From Psychrobacillus sp. FSL K6-4046 (GTDB taxonomy: Bacteria; Bacillota; Bacilli; Bacillales_A; Planococcaceae), in the NCBI RefSeq assembly GCF_038624605.1, contig NZ_CP152020.1, positions 620,001-684,000 of the forward strand: DNA of 64,000 nucleotides, read 5' to 3'. Numbering within the stretch: position 1 is the first letter of the stretch; every line of letters starts with the position of its first letter. Both the position numbers and the translations under genes were made by a program. The notes beneath the pieces were generated by a model. That model was not told the origin of the DNA. It saw only the letters and a program-made list of their open reading frames with translations, and did not search any database. Below are positions 4,022-53,638 of the stretch, piece after piece.

Positions 4022-4227
4022 TGGAACACATCCTTCCATTTAGTATTGATTACTAATCATGATCATTTCACCTTGATAATGACGCCGATTAGCATTGCTA
4101 AGATGCTTAATAGGTTAGGTTATCTAAAGCGTTATATTCGGAGTAGCGCCTATAAGTAATACACCATTAAGATTAAATCTGATTAATGTGAGGGGGGTCC
4201 TCTTTTATGGGGAGGTTTTGTGAGGTT

Positions 4228-4862
4228 ATGGGCCATCTCAAGACTTTTATGGGTCACTTCTTCTAGATTTATGGGACGTTTCTTATAAGATTATGGGACA
4301 CAGTATAACTTTAATGGGCGCTTTGAGAGTTTATGGGCCATCTCAAGACTTTTATGGGTCACTTCTTCTAGGTTTATGGGACGTTTCTTATAAGGTTATG
4401 GGACACATTAAAGACTTTTACGGGCGCTTTCCGAGTTTATGGGCCATATCAAGACTTTTATGGGTCACTACTTCTAGGTTTATGGGACGTTTCTTATAAG
4501 GTTATGGGACACATTAAAGACTTTTACGGGCGCTTTCTGAGTTTATGGGCCATCTCAAGACTTTTATGGGTCACTACTTCTAGATTTATGGGACGTTTCT
4601 TATAAGGTTATGGGACACATTAAAGACTTTTACGGGCGCTTTCTGAGTTTATGGGCCATCTCAAGACTTTTACGGGTCACTTCTTCTAGATTTATGGGAC
4701 ATTTCTTATAAGATTATGGGACACATTATACCTTTAATGGGCGCTTTGCGAGTTTATGGGCCATCTCAAGACTTTTATGGGTCACTTCTTCTAGGTTTAT
4801 GGGACGTTTCTTATAAGATGATGGGACACATTATACCTTTTATGGGCGCTTTGCGAGTTTAG
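4228..4862. repeat. Tandem array: six ~106-bp blocks, each of five ~21-bp ATGGG units
   Basis: Blocks start at 4228, 4333, 4439, 4545, 4651 and 4756 (step 105-106). Each block contains five subunits that begin ATGGGCC, ATGGGTC, ATGGGAC, ATGGGAC and A(C/T)GGGCG, with lengths near 21, 22, 22, 21-22 and 19 bases. Blocks are over 90 percent alike by eye. The flanks (4184-4227) contain one degenerate partial block. No frame survives the mixed unit lengths, so this is taken as non-coding DNA. Confidence 0.9.
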
Positions 4863-4899: not shown

Positions 4900-5021
4900 T
4901 GATTGAAGCGACAGGCGGCGACTCCTGGGGGAACAGCACGAGGGAGAGACTACAGGCTCGATCCGTGCCCCCAGGAAAGCGCCCGCCGAAAGCGAAAATC
5001 TGTGATTTCTAAATCTACTTA
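4900..5021. repeat. 122-bp structured repeat, copy 1 of a direct pair
   Basis: This stretch is identical by eye to 5094-5215. It is GC-rich against an AT-rich background and contains a long imperfect palindrome (CTCCTGGGGG...CCCCCAGGA, with outer GGCGGCG...CGCCCGCC arms). It resembles a GC-rich palindromic element dispersed in many Bacillaceae intergenic regions, as I remember them. Confidence 0.85.
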
Positions 5022-5093
5022 GATGTGAAGGTTATTATTAATCATTTATGTAAAACTCGATCCCAATATCTAAAATCCTTTCCCCATCCTATA

Positions 5094-5215
5094 TGATTGA
5101 AGCGACAGGCGGCGACTCCTGGGGGAACAGCACGAGGGAGAGACTACAGGCTCGATCCGTGCCCCCAGGAAAGCGCCCGCCGAAAGCGAAAATCTGTGAT
5201 TTCTAAATCTACTTA
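5094..5215. repeat. 122-bp structured repeat, copy 2 of a direct pair
   Basis: Second copy of the element at 4900-5021 in the same orientation, separated by a 72-base AT-rich spacer. The lack of visible divergence suggests a recent duplication or gene conversion. Confidence 0.85.
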
Positions 5216-5355
5216 ACAATGCGAGTTTCATTATTAAATTTATATCTATAATTCCTAAATACCATCTGCATTTAATATAATACTTTAACGCAAAGCCTAG
5301 AAGATTAAATTATTTTAAAAAAATAACATTTTTGAAAAGAATATATATTTCCCTA

Positions 5356-5457: not shown

Positions 5458-7611
5458 ATGAATCCATTGTTAATCGCAAACTGGGTGTTATTCATAGGTG
5501 TTGTACTGTATGCGGTATATCTATTTGTATATCTACTACGAACGAGATACGCATACATTAAATTGGGGAAAAAAGTTGAGTTTGAAGATAATGTGAAGGA
5601 AAGACTTCGCAAAATCTGGGTGTATGTATTTGGGCAAAAGAAATTATTAAAAGACAAGAAGAGTGGATCTATTCACGTCATGTTCTTTTATGGATTTATC
5701 TTAGTACAATTTGGAGCAATTGATTTTATCTGGAAGGGACTAGCACCTGATTCACATTTACCGCTAGGACCACTATATCCAGCATTTACATTCTTCCAAG
5801 AAATCGTAACATTAGTTATTTTAGTAGCAGTAATCTGGGCATTCTACCGCCGTTACGTAGAAAAGCTAGTTCGTTTAAAACGTGGATGGAAAAATGGCCT
5901 AGTACTGATTTTCATCGGTGGACTAATGGTGTCTGTATTAGTCGGTAACGGTATGGGAATGATTTGGCATGGACATGAGGCAACCTGGAGTGAGCCTGTA
6001 GCATCTGCTGTTGCAACCGTTTTCCAAGGGATACCTGAGGCAGCCGCAATCACTGTATTCTTTGTTATGTGGTGGATTCACTTATTGTTCCTATTATCAT
6101 TCTTAGTTTATATACCACAATCTAAGCATTTCCATTTAATTACTGGACCTGCAAACGTATATTTTCACCGTCTAGATAAAGTAGGTAGACTACGTCCTAT
6201 TAATTTTGAAGAAGAAGAGGACGAGGAAGCGGATGAAGAGGAAATGCCAGTCTTCGGTGTCGGTCGCGTCCAAGACTTTACACAAGCACAGATGATAGAC
6301 TTCTACGCGTGTGTAGAATGTGGTCGTTGTACGAATATGTGTCCAGCGACAGGAACTGGTAAAATGCTTTCTCCAATGGACTTAATCGTGAAGCTTCGTG
6401 ATCACTTAACATTTACTGGAGCAGTAGAAACGAAACAAAAACCATGGGTACCTTCATTAGCATTCCAAGGAACAAAAGGAAATCAACTAGCGATGGCAGC
6501 TGGTGCAGAAGGTGCAGTCATTGAAGATATTTACAGTCCTTCATTAATCGGTGATGTAATCACTGAGGAAGAGATTTGGGCTTGTACAACTTGCCGTAAC
6601 TGTGAGGACCAATGTCCAGTTATGAACGAGCATGTAGATAAAATTATAGACCTTCGCCGTTATTTAGTAATGACAGAAGGCAAAGTAAACCCGGATGCAC
6701 AACGTGCAATGACAAACATTGAACGTCAAGGCAATCCTTGGGGTCTTAACCGTAAAGAGAAAGAAAACTGGAGAGATGCTCGCCCAGATCTTCATATTCC
6801 TACTGTAAAAGAAGCTTCTAAAGCTGGGGAAGAAATTGAATATCTATTCTGGGTTGGGTCTATGGGATCCTTCGACAACCGTTCTCAAAAAATTGCTTTA
6901 TCGTTTGCTCATCTGATGAATGAAGCAGGAGTGAAATTCGCAATTTTAGGTAACAAGGAAAAGAATTCTGGAGACACACCGCGACGTCTAGGAAACGAAT
7001 TTATGTTCCAAGAATTAGCTGCAGCAAATATTAAAGAATTTGAAAAAGCAGAGATAACGAAGATTGTTACAATCGATCCTCATGCATATAATATTTTCAA
7101 AAATGAATACGGTGATTTTGGTTGGAATGGAGAAGTTCTTCATCATACAGAGTTACTATATGATTTAGTAATGGCGGGTCGCTTAAAACCTAAGCATGCG
7201 GTAAATGAAACAATTACCTTCCATGATTCTTGCTACTTGGGACGTTATAACGATGTGTATGATGCACCTCGTGAAATATTAAAATCGATCCCAGGAGTTC
7301 AGCTAGTAGAAATGGCGCGTAACCGTGAAAACGGGATGTGCTGTGGCGCTGGTGGAGGCTTGATGTGGATGGAGGAGCATGTTGGTAACCGCGTAAACGT
7401 TGCTCGTACAGAACAAGCGTTAGAAGTAAAACCAACCGTTATTTCTTCTGGATGTCCGTACTGCTTAACGATGCTGTCAGATGGTACGAAAGCGAAAGAA
7501 GTAGAAGATACAGTAGGAACATATGATATTGCTGAGCTTCTAGAAAAATCCATCTTCGGTGAGTCAGTGACTGAAATAGAAGAGGTTAACGAAGAACAGA
7601 ATGTTCAATAA
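5458..7611 (+). CDS. fadF: FeS oxidoreductase FadF (YwjF), electron acceptor partner of acyl-CoA dehydrogenases
   Basis: A 717-residue membrane protein believed to pass electrons from acyl-CoA dehydrogenases/ETF to the quinone pool. The first about 240 residues hold several transmembrane helices of NarI/DUF3483 type. Two 4Fe-4S motifs follow (CVECGRCTNMCP and CTTCRNCEDQCP), then two heterodisulfide-reductase-like cysteine-rich domains (DSCYLGRYNDVYDAPREI with MCCGAGGG, and SGCPYCLTM). The length fits B. subtilis YwjF. An acidic Glu/Asp-rich linker follows the membrane part. GAGGGGG precedes the ATG at good spacing. It heads the fatty acid/branched-chain oxidation cluster and is preceded by a FadR-like operator. 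Confidence 0.9.
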   Translation: MNPLLIANWVLFIGVVLYAVYLFVYLLRTRYAYIKLGKKVEFEDNVKERLRKIWVYVFGQKKLLKDKKSGSIHVMFFYGFILVQFGAIDFIWKGLAPDSHLPLGPLYPAFTFFQEIVTLVILVAVIWAFYRRYVEKLVRLKRGWKNGLVLIFIGGLMVSVLVGNGMGMIWHGHEATWSEPVASAVATVFQGIPEAAAITVFFVMWWIHLLFLLSFLVYIPQSKHFHLITGPANVYFHRLDKVGRLRPINFEEEEDEEADEEEMPVFGVGRVQDFTQAQMIDFYACVECGRCTNMCPATGTGKMLSPMDLIVKLRDHLTFTGAVETKQKPWVPSLAFQGTKGNQLAMAAGAEGAVIEDIYSPSLIGDVITEEEIWACTTCRNCEDQCPVMNEHVDKIIDLRRYLVMTEGKVNPDAQRAMTNIERQGNPWGLNRKEKENWRDARPDLHIPTVKEASKAGEEIEYLFWVGSMGSFDNRSQKIALSFAHLMNEAGVKFAILGNKEKNSGDTPRRLGNEFMFQELAAANIKEFEKAEITKIVTIDPHAYNIFKNEYGDFGWNGEVLHHTELLYDLVMAGRLKPKHAVNETITFHDSCYLGRYNDVYDAPREILKSIPGVQLVEMARNRENGMCCGAGGGLMWMEEHVGNRVNVARTEQALEVKPTVISSGCPYCLTMLSDGTKAKEVEDTVGTYDIAELLEKSIFGESVTEIEEVNEEQNVQ

Positions 7612-19048: not shown

Positions 19049-19132
19049 ATTGTAGTAAAAAGTGGGCTCATTGTCGTAAAGTAGCGGGTGATTGTAGTAA
19101 AATACCGTTCTATTGTCGTAAAACTAGTCAGA
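19049..19132. repeat. Short array of four 21-bp units, ATTGT(A/C)GTAAA type
   Basis: Units start at exactly 19049, 19070, 19091 and 19112, a strict 21-base step. Each begins ATTGTAGTAAA or ATTGTCGTAAA, alternating A, C, A, C at the sixth base, while the last ten bases differ. It lies in the convergent gap between pyrG and ywjG; the rest of this roughly 400-base gap (18828-19048 and 19133-19235) shows no gene. Confidence 0.85.
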
Positions 19133-23485: not shown

Positions 23486-23549
23486 GAAACTAGACATAAC
23501 TTAGGTGATTTCTGTCGATCGAGAGACAGGCGATTGCGCTTTTCTTATT

Positions 23550-23669
23550 GTCTAGCTCCATCGCCTTGCCCCTCGGGGTCAAATGGATAAAAGCTCCGGT
23601 GGCTGAAGAGATGCCTCCTCGCTTTTCTCCATTTGCCTGTCGGGTCAGAACAGGCGATTGCGCTTTTCT
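23550..23669. repeat. Bacillaceae-type interspersed palindromic repeat, copy 1
   Basis: It runs from GTCTAGCTCCATCGCC to GCGATTGCGCTTTTCT. Complementary arms GGTCAAATGGATAAAAGC and GCTTTTCTCCATTTGCC make a long hairpin. A 24-base tail fragment of another copy (CAGGCGATTGCGCTTTTC) lies just before it at about 23527-23545. No gene is present between 23485 and 23881. Confidence 0.85.
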
Positions 23670-23673
23670 ATCT

Positions 23674-23794
23674 GTCTAGCTCCATCGCCTTGCCCCTCGG
23701 GGTCAAATGGATAAAAGCTGCGGTGGCGGAAGAGCTGCCTCCTCGCTTTTCTCCATTTGCCTGTCGGGGCAGACATAGGCGATTGCGCTTTTCT
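23674..23794. repeat. Bacillaceae-type interspersed palindromic repeat, copy 2
   Basis: Second head-to-tail copy, beginning GTCTAGCTCCATCGCC five bases after copy 1. It differs from copy 1 at only a few positions, mostly in the loop (GCTGCGGTGGCGGAAGAGC against GCTCCGGTGGCTGAAGAGA). Confidence 0.85.
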
Positions 23795-28691: not shown

Positions 28692-28811
28692 ATGAAACGT
28701 AAGTTTATACATTTCTGCTACATATGCGATTGACATCAATCGGATCGTGTAAGGTATCAGTTTCATAACCAACTCTGTTCCAGATGGTTCAGGGCGAGAG
28801 GAGAGATAGAG

Positions 28812-29088: not shown

Positions 29089-29237
29089 TTATAAAATTCT
29101 CAATCTGTGGATAGTGTCTAGCGCAAGCAGCCTTGCCCCTCGGGGTCAAATGGATAAAAGCTCCGGTGGCTGAGAAAATGCCTCCTCGTTTTTCCCCATT
29201 TGCCTGTCGGGGCAGAGATAGGCGGTTGCGCTTTTCT
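29089..29237. repeat. Interspersed palindromic repeat, copy 3, with extended 5' flank
   Basis: The core (29116-29237) matches the copies at 23550 and 23674. It is preceded by TAGGAAATTATAAAATTCTC and CTGTGGATA, a flank also found before copy 5 (52281-52314), so the full element is longer than the palindrome. It starts just after the rpmE terminator. Confidence 0.8.
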
Positions 29238-29241
29238 TGAT

Positions 29242-29363
29242 GTCTAGCTCCACCGCCATGCCCCTCGGGGTCAAATGGATAAAAGCTCCGGTGGCTGAGA
29301 AAATGCCTCCTCGCTTTTCCCCATTTGCCTGTCGGGGCAGAGATAGGCGCTTCTGCTTTTCTT
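29242..29363. repeat. Interspersed palindromic repeat, copy 4
   Basis: A head-to-tail neighbour of copy 3 in the same orientation, from GTCTAGCTCCACCGCC to GGCGCTTCTGCTTTTCTTG. The region from 29072 to 29457 contains no gene apart from these repeats. Confidence 0.85.
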
Positions 29364-29457
29364 GTGACAATTCCTTTAAAATAGTTTCGGGGAATACACC
29401 CGTATGATATAAATAGATAGAAGCAAAATACATAGTCGATAAGTAAGGAGATATATC

Positions 29458-30036
29458 ATGGCTCAACTATTTTTTAAGCACGGCGCGATGAACAGTGGAA
29501 AATCAATAGAAATTCTAAAGGTAGCACATAATTATGAAGAACAAAACAAACCAGTCGTTATTTTCACACCTGGTATTGATACTCGTGATGAGGTGGGACA
29601 CGTCTCTAGCCGAATTGGTTTGAAGAGAAAGGCCACTGCAATTTATGATGAAACGAACCTATATGAAGTAGTAAAAGAAATAGATCCGAAACCATATTGT
29701 GTGTTAATCGATGAGGTGCAATTCTTAAAAAAAGAGCATGTTCTTCAGCTTACACAAATTGTAGATGAACTAAATATCCCTGTCATGGGCTTTGGCTTAA
29801 AGAATGACTTCCAAAACGAAATGTTCGAGGGCAGTAAATATATGCTGATCTATGCGGATAAAATCGAAGAAATGAAAACGATATGCTGGTTCTGCCATCG
29901 CAAAGCAATCATGAACTTACGAGTGGATGAGAGCGGTCAACCAGTATATACAGGAGAACAAATTCAAATCGGTGGAAATGACTCCTATTATCCAGTTTGC
30001 CGCAAATGCCACTCCAATCCACCGCTTACTCAGTGA
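29458..30036 (+). CDS. tdk: Thymidine kinase
   Basis: A 192-residue type II thymidine kinase that salvages thymidine to dTMP. The P-loop is HGAMNSGKS, the Walker B-like segment [10 protein letters not shown] (catalytic Glu), and the zinc ribbon CWFCHRKA paired with VCRKCH near the C-terminus. The lid/thymidine pocket [19 protein letters not shown] is conserved. AAGGAGA lies 9 bases before the ATG. No terminator is visible; a repeat array begins 31 bases after the stop. Confidence 0.96.
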
Positions 30037-30066
30037 ACGAGTAGGTATTTCTAATACAATATAGAG

Positions 30067-30563
30067 AACCTTGCAGAGAAGAAGCGAAACCTTGCAGAGA
30101 TGGCGAAGAACGTTGCGGAGACGGGCATAAACCTTGCGGAAATGAGCAAGAACCTTGCAGAAAGCCAAAAACCTTGCGGAGACGAAGCCGAACGTTGCAG
30201 AGATGGCGATGAACCTTGCAGAGACAGGGAATAACCTTGCGGAAATGAGCAAGAACTTTGCAGAAAGCCAAAAACCTTGAGTAGACGAAGCCGAACGTTG
30301 CAGAGATGGTGATGAACCTTGCAGAGACAAGGACTAACCTTGCGGAAATGAGCAAGAACCTTGCAGAAAGCCAAAAACCTTGCGGAGACGAAGCCGAACC
30401 TTGCAGAGATGGCGATGAACCTTGCAGAGACAGGGACTAACCTTGCGGAAATGAGCGAGAACCTTGCAGAGACGAGGATAAACCTTGCGGAAATGGGCAA
30501 GAACCTTGCAGAAAGCCGAAAACAAGTTCGGAGACGAAGCAAAACTTTGAACAAACGGTTCCC
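30067..30563. repeat. Tandem array of ~24 units, 21-bp AACCTTGCRGA type
   Basis: Units beginning AACCTTGCAGA or AACCTTGCGGA start at 30067, 30088, 30109, 30130, 30151, 30170, 30191, 30212, 30233, 30254, 30273, 30294, 30315, 30336, 30357, 30376 and onward to about 30543. The step is 21 except for single 19-base units at 30151, 30254, 30357 and 30502, so most of the array has a 103-base higher-order period (four 21s plus one 19). It lies between tdk and prfA. Confidence 0.92.
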
Positions 30564-30594
30564 ACCTGTGCAGTTGAGCTATCAATCCGTAAAG

Positions 30595-30681
30595 TAGCGG
30601 AGGGCGAGCGAAATTGTATCTTCGCGAGCCCTTTACTGAATAGAATAGGTATATATTCTTTCATTAGCATAAAGGCTCTTT
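30595..30681. repeat. Two-hairpin dispersed repeat, copy 1
   Basis: It shares most positions with 49965-50050: TAGCGG, then GCGAAATTGTATCTTCGCGAGC (arms around ATTGTATC), TTTATGAATAGA-type text, and TTAGC near the end. The first stem has a two-base mismatch here (GGGCGAGC against GCGAGCCC). It sits between the array and prfA. Confidence 0.75.
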
Positions 30682-30760
30682 AAAATAGAAAAAGTAGCAA
30701 GGACTCTGCTTTTTCTTTATAATAGTACTATTAGACATATAAATGAACGAGGTGAGCACG

Positions 30761-31840
30761 ATGTTTGATCGATTACAATCGGTAGAAGACCGTTATAATA
30801 ATTTAAATGAATTGCTTAGTGATCCAGATGTAGTGAATGATACGAACAAGCTAAGAGAGTATTCAAAAGAACAATCGAATCTACAGGCGACAGTGGATGC
30901 GTATAGAGAATATAAGGATGTTAAAAGCCAATACCAGGATGCAAAGCAAATGCTTGATGAGAAGCTAGATGCAGATATGCGTGAAATGGTAAAGGAAGAA
31001 GTGAACGAGCTAGAAGGTCAGATTGCTGAGCTAGAAGAGCGTTTACGTATTTTGTTGATCCCGAAAGATCCGAATGATGACAAAAACGTTATTATGGAGA
31101 TTCGTGGAGCTGCGGGTGGAGATGAGGCAGCCTTATTTGCAGGAAATCTTTTCCGTATGTACAGCAGATTTGCGGAAACACAAGGCTGGAAAATCGAGGT
31201 TATGGAATCGAATCCAACTGGTTTAGGCGGATATAAAGAAATAATCTTCATGATTAATGGGAATAATGCCTATTCGAAGATGAAATACGAAAATGGTGCA
31301 CACCGCGTGCAACGTGTTCCAGAAACTGAGTCAGGCGGCCGTATTCATACATCCACTGCAACAGTAGCAGTTCTTCCAGAAGCGGAAGAGGTAGACGTAG
31401 AGATTCACGAAAAAGAAGTTCGTGTAGATACTTTTGCATCATCAGGTGCTGGTGGTCAATCGGTTAACACAACTATGTCAGCTGTTCGTATGACCCATTT
31501 ACCTACAGGGATCACAGTTTCCATGCAGGATGAAAAATCTCAGATTAAAAACAGAGAAAAAGCGATGAAAATTCTTCGTGCACGTGTAGCGGATAAGTTC
31601 CGTCAAGAAGCGCAAGCAGAGTATGATGCTGTCCGTAAATCAGCGGTTGGTACTGGTGACCGTTCGGAACGAATTCGCACATACAATTATCCACAAAATC
31701 GCGTGACTGACCATCGTATTGGTTTAACTATTCAAAAGCTAGACCAAATTTTAGAAGGTAAGCTAAATGAAGTAGTGGATGCACTGATTTTAGAGGATCA
31801 AGCTGAAAAGCTAGAAAGAATGAATGATACAAATGTCTAA
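30761..31840 (+). CDS. prfA: Peptide chain release factor 1
   Basis: A 359-residue RF1 that reads UAA and UAG in the ribosomal A site and triggers peptide release. The codon-recognition PxT-type motif lies in the middle ([10 protein letters not shown]), and the catalytic GGQ loop is [12 protein letters not shown] near residue 230; its glutamine is methylated by PrmC, encoded next. The frame opens at 30743, but GAGGTGAG five bases before ATG 30761 selects [12 protein letters not shown], the family start. Its 3' end overlaps prmC by 17 bases. Confidence 0.96.
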
Positions 31841-53086: not shown

Positions 53087-53192
53087 TGCAGAGCAGTTTC
53101 CGCAACTGCAACACTCTAAGTGGCTAGCGCAACACTGTGATCAAAAGGCGCAACACTTTTGGATTTCCCGCAACACTTTGAGCTGATTTACT
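53087..53192. repeat. Short array of 21-bp GCAACACT units
   Basis: GCAACACT begins at 53108, 53129, 53150 and 53170 (steps 21, 21, 20), with a degenerate unit before it. Two units are repeated at 53347-53385 inside the longer duplication described next. Confidence 0.8.
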
Positions 53193-53638
53193 TTGCGGAA
53201 TAAATCCCTGTGAGCGGTGATATTTTCAAAAACCCTTTCCAATCGATATCAATTATGCAAGCGGTCTCCCAGTACGAAGCGAATTGTGTGGAAATTGTGT
53301 GTGACACAGGGACAGACCCAAACGCACACTTTGATCAAAAGGCGCAACACTTTTGGATTTCCCGCAACACTTTGAATTGCTTTGCTTTGCGGAATAAATC
53401 CCTGCGAGCGGTGATATTTTCAAAACCGTTTTCCAATTGAAATCAACTTATGTGAGCACCCCCAGTACGAAGCCAATTGTGTGGGAATTGTGTGTGACAC
53501 AGGGACAGACCCAAATCCTTGCAAACAGTGATATTTTCAAAACCGCTTTCCACTAGATATCAACTATGCAAGCGATCCCCCAGTCACGAAGCGAATTGTG
53601 TGGAAATTGTGTGTGACACAGGGACAGACACAACTCCC
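53192..53638. repeat. Three ~130-bp direct repeats ending in GACACAGGGACAGACCC
   Basis: Copies lie at about 53192-53324, 53386-53518 and 53516-53638. Each runs from GTGATATTTTCAAAA through AATTGTGTG(G)AAATTGTGTG to TGACACAGGGACAGAC. Between the first two stands a copy of the GCAACACT array (53325-53385). The terminal motif resembles REP-type ends associated with IS200-like (Y1) transposases in Bacillaceae as I remember them; no transposase gene is present. Confidence 0.75.

Follow-up and report, generated by a model that had tools for sequence, protein, structure and literature searches.

The window analysed here, a stretch of 64,000 nucleotides from a Psychrobacillus chromosome, carries an array of short direct repeats between the genes for thymidine kinase (tdk) and peptide chain release factor 1 (prfA). 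The features of this locus are as follows:

29458..30036, + strand: tdk, thymidine kinase (Pfam PF00265), left flank of the array
30067..30563, + strand: family A array (AACCTTGCRGARAYG core), 24 units, 21-bp step, 103-bp five-unit blocks
30151..30169, + strand: 19-bp junction unit
30254..30272, + strand: 19-bp junction unit
30357..30375, + strand: 19-bp junction unit
30502..30520, + strand: 19-bp junction unit, at the degenerate 3' end
30743..31840, + strand: prfA, peptide chain release factor 1 (Pfam PF03462/PF00472), right flank of the array

Unit-by-unit parsing gave 22 clean units of the AAC[CGT]TTG type and two degenerate ones, and TRF independently recovered the periods of 21 bp and 103 bp. 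Both results bear out the sequence-only reading of this DNA, which had described about 24 units with a 21-bp step and a 103-bp period. The four 19-base units that it had placed at 30151, 30254, 30357 and 30502 are exact, and all remaining steps are 21. Upstream of tdk, an L31-Firmicutes ribosomal protein leader (RF03156) precedes the L31 gene at 28773-28803. At 23522-23794 and 29115-29364, a repeat of 124-125 bp (CCCCTCGGGGTCAAATGGATAAAAGCTCCGGTGGC...) stands in tandem pairs, and it is also scattered through the genome (L015, L029, L350).

Three further arrays had been claimed in the window, at 4228, 19049 and 53087, and all of them are present, with TRF reporting the first at 4217-4861:

about 4205..4861, + strand: family D array (TTTATGGGnCACTT; TTTATGGG units), 28 core matches, steps 20-22, block of about 106 bp
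19049..19127, + strand: family C array (ATTGTMGTAA), 4 units, step 21
about 53087..53180, + strand: family B array (CGCAACACTT), 4-5 units, steps 20-21

The proposal that they share an identical 21-base step holds for the array at 19049 and fails for those near 4205 and 53087, where the step is 21 ± 1. The description of the four arrays as having unrelated units is likewise only partly right, since the tdk core, read as its reverse complement (YGCAAGGTT), has YGCAA in common with CGCAACACTT, families A and B adjoin each other at three loci, and ACACTT recurs in the TTTATGGG family. Directly after the family D array, at about 4900-5250, we also noted two long near-identical repeat copies beginning GATTGAAGCGACAGGCGGCGACTCCTGGGGGAACAGC. 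Beside the family B array, a 115-119 bp repeat containing TGTGTGACACAGGGACAGAC or similar lies at 53396-53638; such repeats also occur at L017 9739-10073 and 19614-20000.

The Psychrobacillus chromosome has at least 64 intergenic array loci and at least seven core families. The array segments number 74 and add up to about 15.4 kb; they lie at 64 loci and at one additional locus that lacks a called left flank. This locus set comes from whole-genome pattern and similarity searches, read back with fetched flanks; the pattern searches cover the whole genome, and the unbiased figures come from sampled stretches that make up about 32% of it. In 864 kb of evenly spread stretches of the same genome, the window included, intergenic 6-mers recurred 435 times at lag 21 and about 90 times at neighbouring lags, with further peaks at lags 42 and 63, and coding DNA from the same 864 kb displayed the codon period alone, without a peak at lag 21. 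With 393 kb more (1.26 Mb), 11 intergenic regions matched themselves at lag 21, and no other lag between 13 and 33 gave more than two such regions (63-bp window, at least 60% identity to itself at the given lag). The sequence-only reading would have been contradicted by the lack of a genome-wide 21-base peak; instead, the peak is present in intergenic DNA in both scans and supports its suggestion that helical spacing is under selection, or that some mechanism builds the arrays, as opposed to the spread of a single mobile repeat.

Written in a common orientation, the cores are:

Family A: YGCAAGGTT
Family B: CGCAACACTT
Family C: TTACKACAAT
Family D: TTTATGGGnCACTT
Family E: TTTAGGTGnCACTT
Family F: AATCGGTCGGTT
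Family G, the seventh: CGGTGATAAA, with arrays of 5-6 units spaced by 20-21 bp at L334 about 2210-2340, at L349 about 6020-6130 and near the start of L153

Families A, B, C, D/E and F were mapped over the whole genome, and family G was seen in sampled stretches. All 101 listed pairs of family C are spaced by exactly 21, with 18-22 permitted by the search, and in family F of this genome 36 of 37 steps are 21, with other steps again permitted. The spacing rule has exceptions, as families B, D, E and G accept steps of 20-22.

Each unit consists of a conserved core of 10-12 bp followed by a spacer of about 9 bp that lacks conservation, the information content being 1.5-2 bits per core position and near 0 at spacer positions. 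Single arrays have 3-7 units, most commonly five or six, and the long arrays of families A to E are tandem blocks linked by a unit of 18-20 bp; taking all families together, 39 of 54 inner blocks have the five-unit size. The spacers tell how such arrays have grown. Those of neighbouring units are no closer to each other than those of different loci (identity 0.31 vs 0.34 in C, 0.33 vs 0.36 in F, 0.33 vs 0.30 in D, 0.28 vs 0.32 in B and 0.40 vs 0.34 in A), and 21-bp slippage is therefore not their source. At lags 4-5, families A, C and D reach identities of 0.57-0.69, so that duplication has mainly been of whole blocks. In family F of the window strain, the identity at lag 2 is 0.47 vs 0.33, a hint of a 42-bp sub-period, which indicates that unit pairs have also been duplicated there. 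Judged from the spacers, then, copying does not proceed by single 21-bp units. At L330 in the genome G015, F spacers likewise resemble each other at every second unit.

We compared the window strain (G000) with Psychrobacillus sp. BL-248-WT-3 (G011), which belongs to the same species. All 56 adjacent F steps at the fetched loci of G011 are 21. A strain comparison for copy-number change had been suggested, and the two strains differ in whole units or blocks at several loci, for example with 5 vs 2 units at 1243730 and 6 vs 3 at 293020. At three loci, picked for being diverged and with their units paired in order by hand, orthologous arrays mismatch at 11 of 144 core positions (8%) and at 42 of 108 spacer positions (39%; p=2e-9), and spacer length is unchanged (0 indels in 12 spacers).

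Related species retain the 21-bp step and alter the central core bases genome-wide (ATCGGTCGG/ATCGGATGG; TTTATGGG/TTTAGGAG), the exchange involving two or three central bases. Among 161 genomes of the family, the TCGGTCGG array pattern was restricted to its own species. Where this species has ATCGGTCGG, the genomes G009 and G015 have ATCGG[A/G]TGG arrays, found at nine loci with all 21 listed pairs at step 21, and two of these loci are orthologous to ATCGGTCGG array loci. Similarly, TTTATGGG and TTTAGGTG arrays dominate in the species of the window, and P. faecigallinarum has TTTAGGAG, including at two orthologous loci. The tdk–prfA gap itself holds family A arrays in G011 and P. faecigallinarum, about five GGTCTCG units in G009, and about five GGTTGCTC-type units each in G010 and G003, with steps near 21 in the last three genomes. 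Further cores at 20-21 bp occur in other Psychrobacillus species and in two other genera (G085, G035). We did not find clear 21-bp arrays in five of nine other genera, of which 60-80 kb each was sampled, and two more were ambiguous; the system is thus not universal in the family. In P. faecigallinarum (Sa2BUA9), 0-2 degenerate units are left at most F loci examined, as expected if a putative trans factor has been lost there.

These comparisons bear on the main rival to a binding function, namely a functionless array-building process in which a mutational or copying mechanism (slippage, template switching or integrase-like unit addition) adds two-turn steps. The variation of strain copy numbers by whole units or blocks, the clear block-level duplication and the 42-bp sub-period of the F arrays are all consistent with such a process. 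However, duplication of single units predicts neighbours that resemble each other, which their spacers do not, and the mechanism explains neither the conservation of cores next to free spacers nor the concerted change of the central core between species. We consider it unlikely that copying without function accounts for the arrays. Between the two options left by the sequence-only reading, the data favour selection on core and spacing, because the spacers of neighbours are no closer than those of different loci, and because orthologous spacers diverge while core and step are kept.

Convergent gaps account for 28 of the 64 array loci (44%), compared with 48 of 268 background intergenic gaps of at least 150 bp (18%; p=4.5e-5), and divergent gaps are under-represented (7 of 64 vs 62 of 268; p=0.04). 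Many arrays lie directly beyond a hairpin with a T run, as seen in the sequences rather than by systematic count. With respect to the neighbouring genes, orientation is mixed in families B, C, D, E and F and consistent only in A (4 of 4 tandem gaps). It follows replication in A (10 of 11) and D (11 of 12), base 1 being taken as near the origin, in agreement with the skew profile, and this alignment of A and D is not predicted by a simple orientation-free DNA site. An all-against-all comparison of the flanking proteins revealed no common family except IS transposases and common paralogues.

The enrichment in convergent gaps would also be expected if the arrays were sites at which, for example, DNA gyrase or a nucleoid protein wraps or bends the DNA and relieves supercoiling where genes converge, like BIME-2 of E. 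coli; the 21-bp step would then serve anisotropic bending and not sequence recognition. At about 105 bp, the module is wrap-sized for gyrase. Moreover, a 10.5-bp AT period is present in family D (p=0.006) and weakly in F (p=0.06), with p=0.01 for six families combined. The within-unit rhythm is nevertheless not significant in A, B, C and E, and bending requires far less specificity than is seen in the cores, in which two or three central bases are exchanged between species; wrapping or bending sites are a quite unlikely explanation. Intrinsic curvature was rejected: only family D shows a clear 10.5-bp AT rhythm, that of F being marginal.

Several arrays have received insertion sequences:

G000 749.9-751.5 kb (L137), 925.0 kb (L141), 2474.9 kb (L155), 2874.5 kb (L157) and 3411.3 kb (L050): 1.5-kb IS256-family element (PF00872) inside arrays
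G000 249.4 kb (L334): sixth IS256-family copy, inside a gene
L141 923637-924818 and L153 about 2212691-2213880: two identical IS3-like elements, in or beside D/E arrays

The six IS256-family copies are near-identical, five of them lie within 21-bp arrays (families C, D and F), and an 8-bp target duplication is readable at some sites. Exclusive targeting of arrays is rejected by the copy within a gene. An enrichment in arrays is likely, its size being uncertain because array loci were fetched deliberately and other DNA was merely sampled. One could argue that the arrays are neutral leftovers in safe intergenic DNA, used as insertion sites, given the five IS256-family and two IS3-like copies in or beside them and their siting away from promoters. 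Yet the sixth IS256 copy sits within a gene and, unlike neutral DNA, the arrays keep core and step while their spacers drift; we therefore regard neutral leftovers as decidedly improbable.

A coding role (heptapeptide repeats) or a structured RNA appears hardly credible. A minus-strand frame of G000 is open over 165 codons, but it is not kept in G011 or P. faecigallinarum, has no coding score and is shifted by the 19-bp units. The sequence-only reading had held that the apparent NLAExxx heptapeptide frame is not a gene and had named a conserved protein product from a single frame as evidence to the contrary; the frame proved unconserved across the strain and species orthologues. As for RNA, fold z-scores range from -1.2 to 1.4, and Rfam reports no family in the window apart from the L31 leader elsewhere. 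Positions 30000-30600 contain no inverted repeats, so the arrays are not palindromic.

The layout of about five non-palindromic direct repeats at roughly 21 bp, together with several families per genome and fast core change, is also reminiscent of plasmid iterons, whose spacing is 19-22 bp. The arrays might accordingly be decoys that titrate or handcuff the replication initiators of incoming plasmids, with core families tracking plasmid groups. However, we obtained 0 matches to A or F arrays in 72,556 PLSDB records, among which plasmids of the genus are possibly under-represented, and a decoy function seems very unlikely to us. Phage origin was rejected for family D, with zero matches in a pattern scan of 2.9 million viral contigs, and for C and F, where the ten matched stretches that were read are simple TCGG repeats or unrelated coding-like repeats.

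On balance, we lean towards the view that the arrays are helically phased recognition sites for putative sequence-specific DNA-binding proteins whose specificity changes between species. Selection for protein binding is suggested by the conserved core, the constant phase, the free spacers of constant length, the independence of neighbouring spacers and core changes that extend across a species. Cooperative phased operators, too, keep a core and its helical phase while leaving the spacers free. The observations themselves comprise the layout, spacing and distribution of the arrays, their core-versus-spacer divergence and the species-specific core change. In the proposed model, each unit would offer a core of 10-12 bp, which takes up about one helical turn, and a free spacer filling roughly the next turn, so that all cores of one array would face the same side of the DNA and side-by-side cooperative binding would be possible. 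The functional module would then be about five sites, that is, about 105 bp or ten turns, and long arrays would repeat this module in tandem, with a unit of 18-20 bp at each joint. The seven or more core families may be served by several proteins, or by one protein family with several specificities. A shift of specificity between species would change the cores at many loci together, with position and step staying the same. The binding protein, its cooperativity and its function are what we infer from sequence. Most likely, the arrays would act on DNA as local nucleoprotein structures, and their location outside genes, preferentially in convergent gaps and often past a terminator hairpin, points to the insulation of converging transcription or supercoiling, or to chromosome organisation, as the most likely purpose.

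A broader claim can be made tentatively, namely that the arrays belong to an undescribed chromosomal system in which a fast-changing family of DNA-binding proteins would coat five-site phased modules at scores of intergenic loci, with several core types per genome and cores changing in concert per species. This reading is possible, though we would not yet hold it to be probable. Its logic resembles that of the fast-evolving zinc-finger/hotspot pairs of eukaryotes. We found no description of such arrays in Bacillales in the open literature, to which the search was confined; novelty is thus likely rather than certain. If the binding-site proposal is true, current annotation overlooks a DNA-binding system of Psychrobacillus and its relatives that is genome-wide and has multiple specificities. 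These bacteria would also offer a ready-made natural series of arrays, with the same step and different cores or the same core and different spacers, useful for learning how cooperative binding depends on helical phasing and on the number of sites, as well as a model for how a binding protein and scores of sites shift specificity together. In addition, the arrays provide natural VNTR markers, and an IS256-family element apparently uses them as landing sites.

Several known systems share part of this description. CRISPR and TIGR arrays likewise combine a conserved repeat with variable spacers of constant length. CRISPR loci have repeats of about 23-50 bp, unique spacers and cas genes, whereas the whole unit here measures 21 bp (a repeat of 10-12 bp and a spacer of about 9 bp), dozens of loci are occupied in both orientations, and no cas-like or other common gene is adjacent. 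Minisatellites (VNTRs) also differ in copy number among strains by whole units or blocks. In contrast to arrays grown by unit slippage, neighbours here have only the core in common, their spacers are as unlike as those of other loci, and similarity is raised only at block-level lags (and at lag 2 in F).

The TAACTGA direct repeats of Beggiatoaceae, cyanobacteria and Bacteroidetes (PMC4679880) are dispersed intergenic sets of short direct repeats too, with few copies per set and no known function. They consist of one heptamer common across phyla, lie mostly just upstream of start codons and have been proposed to act on RNA (PMC4679880). The Psychrobacillus arrays instead have several longer and different cores, spacers, a fixed step, species-specific cores and a preference for convergent gaps, start-to-start gaps being under-represented.

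Plasmid iterons come close in architecture: they are direct repeats of 17-22 bp spaced by two helical turns, with about five non-palindromic copies that are bound side by side. While iterons sit at a replication origin beside a rep gene, the arrays described here are dispersed over at least 64 chromosomal loci, with several families on one chromosome, no PLSDB match (A, F) and no replication initiator identified beside them.

Finally, the REP/BIME elements of enterobacteria resemble the arrays in their many extragenic copies (64 loci here), their preference for gene ends and convergent gaps, their tandem modules and the IS insertions inside them, and IS elements that target REPs are known there, as is an associated RAYT transposase. 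The REP/BIME unit is a palindromic stem-loop, whereas the arrays lack inverted repeats and have fold z-scores near zero; they are direct repeats with a fixed 21-bp step, at least seven cores in one genome and species-specific core change.
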